Program-made: the position numbers and the translations under genes
Assembly (NCBI RefSeq): GCF_000011345.1
Contig: NC_004113.1
Coordinates: 496,001-560,000, forward strand
Length of the DNA stretch: 64,000 nt
DNA from: Thermosynechococcus vestitus BP-1
GTDB taxonomy: Bacteria > Cyanobacteriota > Cyanobacteriia > Thermosynechococcales > Thermosynechococcaceae
Reading direction: 5' to 3'
Notes under the pieces: generated by a model
The model's database searches: none
What the model was told of the DNA's origin: nothing
The model's input: only the letters and a program-made list of their open reading frames with translations
Shown: positions 29,822 through 31,418 of the stretch, piece by piece
Layout of the letters: each line of letters begins with the position of its first letter
Position numbering within the stretch: the first letter of the stretch is position 1

Positions 29822-30238
29822 ATGGTGATGACTGTCCGGGTAATTGCGCCCGATAAAACCGTTTGGGATGCCCCCGCTGAGGAAGTGATTTTGCCCAGCA
29901 CAACCGGGCAATTGGGGATTCTCTCAAATCATGCCCCCCTCTTAACTGCCTTGGAAACGGGTGTGATGCGGGTGCGCCAAGACCGCGAATGGGTGGCGAT
30001 CGCTCTCATGGGGGGCTTTGCCGAAGTTGAAAACAACGAAGTGACGATTCTCGTCAACGGTGCCGAGCGCGGGGACACAATTGACCTTGAAAAAGCCAAG
30101 GCGGAGTTTGCCGCCGCACAGGCTGCCCTCGCTCAAGCCGAACAGGGGGAATCCAAACAGGCTAAAATTCAAGCCACCCAAGCCTTTCGTCGCGCCCGTG
30201 CTCGCTTGCAGGCCGCAGGGGGTGTGGTCGAGATTTAG
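29822..30238 (+). CDS. atpE: F-type ATP synthase subunit epsilon
   Basis: A 138-residue central-stalk subunit that inhibits ATP hydrolysis. The N-terminal beta-sandwich ([31 protein letters not shown]) is followed by the two C-terminal helices rich in A, E and K ([21 protein letters not shown] and [14 protein letters not shown]). The ATG at 29822 is preferred; a frame start at 29801 lacks support. It lies 67 bases after atpB, before a clear terminator. In E. coli naming this is atpC. Confidence 0.96.
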
Positions 30239-30275
30239 CTTTTTCTCATTTTTTCTCATTTGATGAAGTTCAAAG

Positions 30276-30309
30276 CCTCCCCAACTGCTGACTGGGAGGT
30301 TTTTTATTT
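30276..30309 (+). terminator. Intrinsic terminator of atpB-atpE
   Basis: CCTCCC (30276-30281) pairs with GGGAGG (30294-30299) and is followed by six T and ATTT. The T tract reaches the stop codon of the convergent prfB gene. Confidence 0.8.
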
Positions 30310-31418
30310 AGCTGGCCGCCGTTTGCTGCCGCAGGTAGGCTTGGATAAAGGGATCAAGGTTACCATCCATCACATCCTGAATGGCTGTCGTTTCCACCTC
30401 TGTGCGCAGGTCCTTGACCAGTTGATAGGGGTGAAAGACATAGTTGCGAATTTGGTTGCCCCAAGCCGCCTCAACGGCCTCGCCACGAATATCGGCAATT
30501 TCCTTGGCCTTTTGCTCTTGGGCAATCACCAATAGCTTCGCCTTGAGAATGGCAAGGGCCTTTTCCTTATTTTGCAGTTGCGATCGCTCCTGCGTGCAGC
30601 GGACAGCTAAGCCCGTTGGTTTATGGACAATGCGCACTGCCGTTTCCACCTTGTTGACGTTTTGCCCCCCCTTGCCACCACTGCGGGAAGTGGTAATTTC
30701 TAAATCGCTTTCGGGAATCTCAACGGTAACGGATTGATCCAGTTCGGGCATCACATCCACTCCAGCGAAGCTCGTTTGCCGTTTGCCATTGGCATTGAAG
30801 GGAGAAATGCGCACTAGCCGATGGGTACCCTTTTCAGAACGCAGATAGCCATAGGCGTAGCGACCGCGAATTTCCAAGGTTGCCGACTTAATACCTGCCT
30901 CTTCCCCTTCTGAAAGTTCTGCCAGATGGGTTTGGTAACCGTGGCGCTCTGCCCAGCGGGTGTACATCCGCAGCAACATTTCTGCCCAATCCTGGGCATC
31001 AGTCCCGCCCGCCCCAGCATTGATCGTGACAATAGCGTTGTTTTTGTCGTAGGGGCCACTGAGGAGTTGTTCCAGTTCCCAGCGATTCAACTGGGTGTCT
31101 AACTCCTTTAGCAGCGTAGTTGCCTCTGTCAGCAACCCTTCATCCAGTTCTAACTCCAGCAGTTCCAGGGCTGTTTCCACGTGTTCAATTGTTTTTTGCC
31201 ACTGTTGGAGCTGGCTGAGGCTATCCTTAGCTTCAGTGAGTTGTTGCAGCGTGGCTTGAGCCGTGGCCTGATCAGTCCAGAAATCTGGCTGAGCGGCGGT
31301 GTGCTCAAGGTCATGAATCTTGGCCTTCAGTGCCGCTGGGTCAAAGACAGTCCTGGGTATGACCCAGGCGATCGCGCAACAGAGAAAAATCGCGTTTAAG
31401 GGTGCTTAAATCAGTCAT
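30308..31418 (-). CDS. prfB: Peptide chain release factor 2, with programmed +1 frameshift
   Basis: RF2 reads UGA and UAA stops. The gene starts at the ATG at 31418 (MTDLSTLKRD), and after 25 codons reaches CTT TGA C at 31346-31340, the classic self-regulating RF2 shift site. A +1 shift on CTT skips one T and continues DPAALKAKIHDLEH... to 30308, giving about 369 residues. The catalytic GGQ lies in SGGKGGQNVNK. Upstream of the slip codon the strong AGGGGG spur of E. coli is missing (only CCAGG, 5 bases away). Instead, inverted repeats surround the site (31336-31368). Confidence 0.96.
31336..31368 (-). promoter_or_regulatory. Competing hairpins at the prfB frameshift site
   Basis: In the mRNA, CCUGGGU-CAU-ACCCAGG (31368-31352) forms a perfect 7-bp hairpin 5 bases before the slip codon. 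The same CUGGGUCA (31367-31360) can instead pair perfectly over 8 bases with UGACCCAG (31343-31336), which begins with the UGA stop itself. The two folds exclude each other. A role in tuning the shift is inferred. Confidence 0.5.

Follow-up and report, generated by a model that had tools for sequence, protein, structure and literature searches.

A conserved hairpin at the place of the strong internal SD in cyanobacterial prfB

In Cyanobacteriia, an RNA hairpin located just before the P-site CUU of the prfB frameshift site has probably replaced the strong internal SD as the stimulator of +1 frameshifting. Among bacterial genes, prfB is the standard example both of +1 frameshifting and of an internal SD read during elongation. 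Sequence comparison reveals a cyanobacterial prfB with a conserved slip site, a stem that is conserved, covarying and constrained in its codons, loss of the strong SD and an apparently single origin of the arrangement.

RESULTS

The prfB frameshift site

Gene content and sequence suggest that the genome analyzed is that of a Thermosynechococcus-like cyanobacterium, and its closest relatives in the comparison make up a genus of 11 species. The window, by which we mean the whole 64,000-nucleotide stretch of DNA that was analyzed, carries prfB with the following features:

31341 to 31418, minus strand: prfB ORF1, 25 codons with an in-frame UGA at the end; start codon predicted from homologues
31340 to 31346, minus strand: slip site and weak stop CUU UGA C, from the sequence and an alignment of 174 loci
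30308 to 31342, minus strand: prfB ORF2, the RF2 body in the +1 frame, from frame reading and TIGR00020

ORF1, MTDLSTLKRDFSLLRDRLGHTQDCL, stops at the UGA at 31343 to 31341 on the minus strand, and an ATG lies 23 to 24 codons 5′ of the CTT in most of the prfB loci compared. The P-site codon of the slip is the CUU at 31346 to 31344, where a +1 shift joins ORF1 to the RF2 body. Reading on in the +1 frame gives an RF2 of 369 amino acids, which scores 487 bits against TIGR00020 (cut-off, 370). The gene has the parts of a prfB +1 cassette, namely, a short 0-frame ORF ending in UGA, RF2 in the +1 frame and a CUUU slip with UGAC.

For comparison, 174 prfB loci of Cyanobacteriia were collected from about 140 genera, largely one per genus. 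CUUUGA was kept in all 174 loci, as CTTTGAC in 171 and as CTTTGAG or CTTTGAA in 3. UGAG or UGAA replaces UGAC after the slip site in the related, deep-branching cyanobacterial genes L040, L096 and L097, and these contexts are expected to differ from UGAC in stop strength. A cyanobacterial single-ORF prfB without the hairpin was sought as a natural-loss control, and none was present among the 174 loci. At the other end of the gene, a GGGAGG/CCTCCC inverted repeat with T and A runs alongside (window 30260 to 30310) lies between atpC (end at 30238, plus strand) and prfB (end at 30308, minus strand) and is probably a bidirectional terminator common to both.

A hairpin 5′ of the slip site is conserved throughout the class

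The first-pass annotation, made from the window alone, had noted a 7-bp hairpin just 5′ of the slip site, and such a hairpin is present at 31352 to 31368:

31362 to 31368, minus strand: hairpin 5′ arm CCUGGGU, from conservation and covariation across loci
31359 to 31361, minus strand: hairpin loop CAU, one codon, from the alignment
31352 to 31358, minus strand: hairpin 3′ arm ACCCAGG, from conservation and covariation across loci
31347 to 31351, minus strand: 5-nt spacer ACUGU including the E-site codon UGU, its spacing constant in all aligned loci
31351 to 31354, minus strand: residual SD-like AGGA with three of its four bases in the stem, from the SD comparison

The hairpin (CCUGGGU-CAU-ACCCAGG) has 7 bp and a 3-nt loop, lies 5 nt 5′ of CUU and has a predicted energy at 37°C of −10.4 kcal/mol, a model value. 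The HIP1 palindrome GCGATCGC at window 31369 to 31376 adjoins it, and such overlap occurs in 17 of the 174 loci. An Rfam 15 covariance-model search of the hairpin region gave no match up to E = 5.

The stem stands at a constant distance from the slip site in all 174 loci. Pairs CTG1-CAG3, CTG3-CAG1 and CTG2-CAG2 were formed in every locus (the last in one locus as U-G), as was GGN1-NCN3 (G-C in 116, G-U in 47 and A-U in 11), and GGN2-NCN2 was formed in 173. The outermost pair was formed in 170 loci and the innermost in 151; the 23 exceptions to the latter mostly had G opposite A, which shortens the stem to 6 bp and gives a loop of the GAAAA or GCAAA type. A GGG third stem codon, with 6 bp and a pentaloop, was seen in L067, L085, L117, L162 and about a dozen other loci, and the pentaloops of these variants are GNRA-like, judged by their likeness to boxB loops. 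When the partner was offset by 1 to 3 columns, pairing was at most 57.6% (56.5% on distinct rows).

A covariance model of the element was run on 386 genomes of the phylum and matched 184. Judged by the list of matches, these appear to be 184 of the 186 genomes from Cyanobacteriia and none of the 200 from sister classes. Each listed genome had a single matching place, except G065, which had two. The sole sampled RF2-bearing genome of the class without a match to the model was G344 (family f2), which has a good RF2 match and whose genus-mate G054 (locus L089) has the hairpin; either the filter passed over its element or the element has truly been lost there. An exact-pattern scan of about 85,000 species found at least 118 loci, and among the matches listed 118 of 118 were Cyanobacteriota. 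We conclude that the upstream hairpin is well beyond chance and is not local to one genome.

The stem also covaries. Where AGY replaced GGN, in 11 loci, it always occurred with NCU such that an A-U pair was restored, and A-U double changes appeared in several separate clades (L095, L077, L130/L175, L170, L101 and L039). Across loci, GGU was mostly paired with ACY and GGC with GCY, and in L185 the outer C-G pair was swapped to G-C. Covariation counts exceeded those of shuffled alignments. Independent-contrast tests, with co-change taken on supported branches of one RF2 tree of moderate support, gave about six concordant and no discordant contrast pairs for each of two base pairs, at a median P of only about 0.03. 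Because two stem pairs are invariant, and hence uninformative, the covariation signal comes mainly from two of the seven pairs.

The strong SD is absent from Cyanobacteriia and present in sister classes

Forty-five prfB loci with the slip site from non-photosynthetic sister classes of the same phylum served as the outgroup. Sister-class genes had AGGAGG, AAGGAG or AGGGGG at the usual SD place, and most had no comparable stem. A strong SD string was found in 44 of the 45 sister-class loci versus 0 of the 174 Cyanobacteriia loci, in which the strong internal SD of the cassette (AGGGGG or AGGAGG, 3 nt 5′ of CUU) is missing. The window conforms in having AGGA alone, partly within the stem, and the absence of the usual strong SD that the first-pass annotation reported is a property of the class. 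Median SD:anti-SD energies, calculated with an assumed anti-SD tail, ACCUCCUUU, that may differ from a genome's own 16S tail, were −4.0 kcal/mol in Cyanobacteriia versus −9.5 kcal/mol in the sister classes, and the ranges did not overlap. The assumed tail agrees with the conserved 16S tail cited in PMC6847405. Median hairpin energies were −11.7 versus −1.5 kcal/mol (model values) with overlapping ranges, as some outgroup folds were moderately stable, down to −9.6 kcal/mol (L189). In three loci of family f47 from a non-photosynthetic sister class (L217, L223 and L232), CUUUGA was not found at the expected place, which suggests that the prfB frameshift has been lost in some members of that family.

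In the RF2 tree, one branch with a support of 99 separated the hairpin-bearing from the SD-bearing genes, and the split fits a single switch. Since, among the genomes compared, the hairpin occurs in Cyanobacteriia only and the strong SD in the sister classes, the comparison is consistent with one replacement of the strong SD by the hairpin at the base of the cyanobacteria. With a class-wide covarying hairpin and the strong SD absent from 174 of 174 loci, the earlier suggestion that an RNA fold stands in for the SD appears to be correct.

AGGA persists at SD distance in most Cyanobacteriia loci, and thus weak SD pairing may still contribute to shifting. The AGG is nearly always part of the 3′ arm, so that it can pair either in the stem or with the anti-SD but not in both at once, and the hairpin could instead be a brake that hides AGGA, keeping anti-SD pairing low and either lowering shift efficiency or preventing internal initiation. 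We consider a brake unlikely. The stem is kept in L011, L012 and L185, where AGCA replaces AGGA, either with 6 bp or, in L185, with 7 bp and the outer pair swapped. Moreover, the SD was never lengthened to a strong one (0 of 174) and reached even the better AGGAG in only 29 of 174 loci. Pairing of about −4 kcal/mol leaves a brake little to act on, and a translating ribosome would melt the stem anyway. What these loci maintain seems to be the stem and not the SD.

The hairpin might also act on mRNA level or on unoccupied mRNA, as an insulator of the slip region, as protection from RNase or as a transcription pause, and not on the shifting ribosome. Stem loops a short way upstream of shift sites in viruses have been proposed to serve as insulators (PMC5009743). 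The constant spacing to the slip site and the reciprocal loss of the strong SD point instead to ribosome geometry, and we judge an action at the mRNA level to be quite improbable.

A second pairing is confined to one genus

The first-pass annotation had described a perfect 8-bp pairing between the stem region and a segment containing the UGA and had suggested that this pairing and the upstream hairpin, which exclude each other, may tune the shift, for example with temperature; in such a switch the second fold would bury the UGA. The pairing itself is present as described:

31336 to 31343, minus strand: UGACCCAG, alternative partner of CUGGGUCA (31360 to 31367); genus-restricted and not supported as functional

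The two segments, CUGGGUCA at 31367 to 31360 and UGACCCAG at 31343 to 31336, form eight perfect base pairs with predicted energies of −11.7 versus −10.4 kcal/mol for the hairpin at 37°C and −7.7 versus −7.1 kcal/mol at 55°C. By these figures the alternative has a slight edge over the hairpin, and for the free window RNA it is the structure of minimum energy that folding predicts. All eight pairs were kept in 10 of the 11 species of the genus set and seven of the eight in the eleventh, which together with the perfect pairing and the predicted fold would favor a switch. Among the 163 other Cyanobacteriia loci, however, the eight pairs were formed in only 1, and within the genus the 5′ arm was invariant and no two-sided change was found. 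In addition, the UGA and the bases that follow it occupy the A site and the entry channel during shifting, when they must be single-stranded. The covariation check that the first-pass annotation had recommended for cyanobacterial prfB leaders was favorable to the upstream hairpin, which is conserved and covaries, and unfavorable to the second pairing.

The temperature idea fails because non-thermophiles, including Prochlorococcus and Nostoc, carry the same hairpin equally. The hairpin of the window was not more stable than the class median (−10.4 versus −11.7 kcal/mol), and the two folds kept almost the same predicted balance from 20 to 65°C. A switch or RNA thermometer is very unlikely, and we reject the second pairing as a switch and the hairpin as a temperature sensor. 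We regard the second pairing as a chance match, particular to this lineage, between GGU-CA(Y/R) and UGA-CCC.

The stem is maintained as RNA

Because the hairpin segment is coding, pairing was compared with a codon-preserving null in which only synonymous codons were permuted, within each column, over 64 distinct sequences. Canonical pairs numbered 430 of 448, compared to 412.5 ± 2.4 under the null, the maximum of which was 419 in 2,000 runs; no run (0 of 2,000) reached the observed pairing. Codon choice within the stem was equally restricted, as the 5′-arm Leu codon was CTG in 174 of 174 loci and the 3′-arm Gln codon was CAG in 173, the remaining locus having an Arg codon, CGG, that still forms a U-G pair. 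Elsewhere in these genes, conserved columns were less uniform, the most frequent codon accounting for a fraction of at most 0.47 for Leu and at most 0.79 for Gln. Although L, Q and the last L of the encoded RLGKTQDYL are almost invariant, the explanation that constraint on the protein or nascent peptide alone conserves the segment, with the hairpin as a by-product, is scarcely credible and is largely ruled out by the codon-preserving null and the codon usage, and the residues at the matching place in the sister classes are unrelated. We conclude that the stem is under selection as RNA.

DISCUSSION

The cyanobacterial element combines a stable stem, a fixed short distance 5′ of the slip and selection as RNA, as a refolding stimulator would. 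From these sequence data we infer both an effect of the hairpin on frameshifting and its refolding on the ribosome; most likely, it re-forms behind the ribosome and there stimulates shifting much as an SD does. When CUU is the P-site codon, ribosome geometry puts the 3′ arm 6 to 12 nt upstream, at the place of the SD:anti-SD helix, and the 5′ arm 16 to 22 nt upstream, where the mRNA leaves its channel. A translating ribosome would melt the hairpin on its way to the slip site, and after its arrival there, with CUU and UGA in the P and A sites, the 5′ arm would be out of the exit channel and free to pair again with the 3′ arm. The re-formed stem would be a duplex adjoining the E site, in the position of the SD:anti-SD helix, that could strain or block the mRNA and help the E site to empty. 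When RF2 is scarce, the tRNA reading CUU would slip to UUU, favored by the duplex, and RF2 would therefore be autoregulated.

The cyanobacterial site appears to be the known prfB cassette with the strong SD replaced by the hairpin as a new element. Like the canonical cassette, it has a short ORF1, the CUUU slip, the UGAC weak stop, a U(A/G)U E-site codon and RF2 in the +1 frame. Unlike the E. coli cassette (AGGGGG-UAU-CUU-UGA-C), it has no strong SD and has a conserved hairpin ending 5 nt before CUU; on the same scale, SD:anti-SD energy is −4.0 kcal/mol at the cyanobacterial median versus about −10.6 kcal/mol in E. coli.

The closest parallel is synthetic. A designed hairpin upstream of CUUUGA gave about 60% of the +1 stimulation of an SD with E. 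coli 70S ribosomes in vitro without RF2, and destabilizing it reduced the stimulation (PMC6321510). In both the synthetic refolding hairpin (Huang, Cho and Chang 2018, PMC6321510; earlier PMC3639245) and the cyanobacterial one, the stem abuts the E site before CUUUGA and is proposed to mimic the SD duplex. The former was designed, with 12 GC-rich base pairs and a CGC E-site codon, and was studied in vitro (PMC6321510), whereas the latter is natural, has 6 to 7 bp and is class-wide. As described in a review, the 5′ stem loop of T4 gene 60 bypassing is similar in that mRNA re-pairs on leaving the exit channel and drives ribosome movement, but it serves a 50-nt bypass in a phage gene and not a single-nucleotide shift as in prfB (PMC5009743). 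According to the same review, luteovirus and dianthovirus upstream stem loops likewise place a conserved stem just 5′ of the shift site but act in −1 frameshifting on eukaryotic ribosomes (PMC5009743).

The prfB SD is described as highly or hyper-conserved in that 2016 review (PMC5009743) and in a survey of 12,753 genomes, the survey using the stronger term (PMC12421855). Their searchable text names no cyanobacterial exception with a prfB hairpin or stem-loop, and that of the survey mentions neither cyanobacteria nor a hairpin. In the literature covered, we found no report of the cyanobacterial prfB hairpin; older frameshift papers may hold a remark, and priority is thus not fully assertable.

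We lean toward the view that cyanobacteria once swapped the textbook SD for a hairpin that refolds on the ribosome, which would make prfB the first natural, class-wide case of a +1 shift stimulated by a duplex internal to the mRNA. The strong SD has been dropped, and a covarying hairpin stands in its place, throughout a class to which the ecologically dominant Prochlorococcus and Synechococcus belong. The arrangement offers a natural system for asking whether any duplex by the E site, rRNA-based or not, drives +1 slippage, a question so far addressed only with synthetic hairpins, and would be a clean case of evolution exchanging the stimulator in an essential gene.
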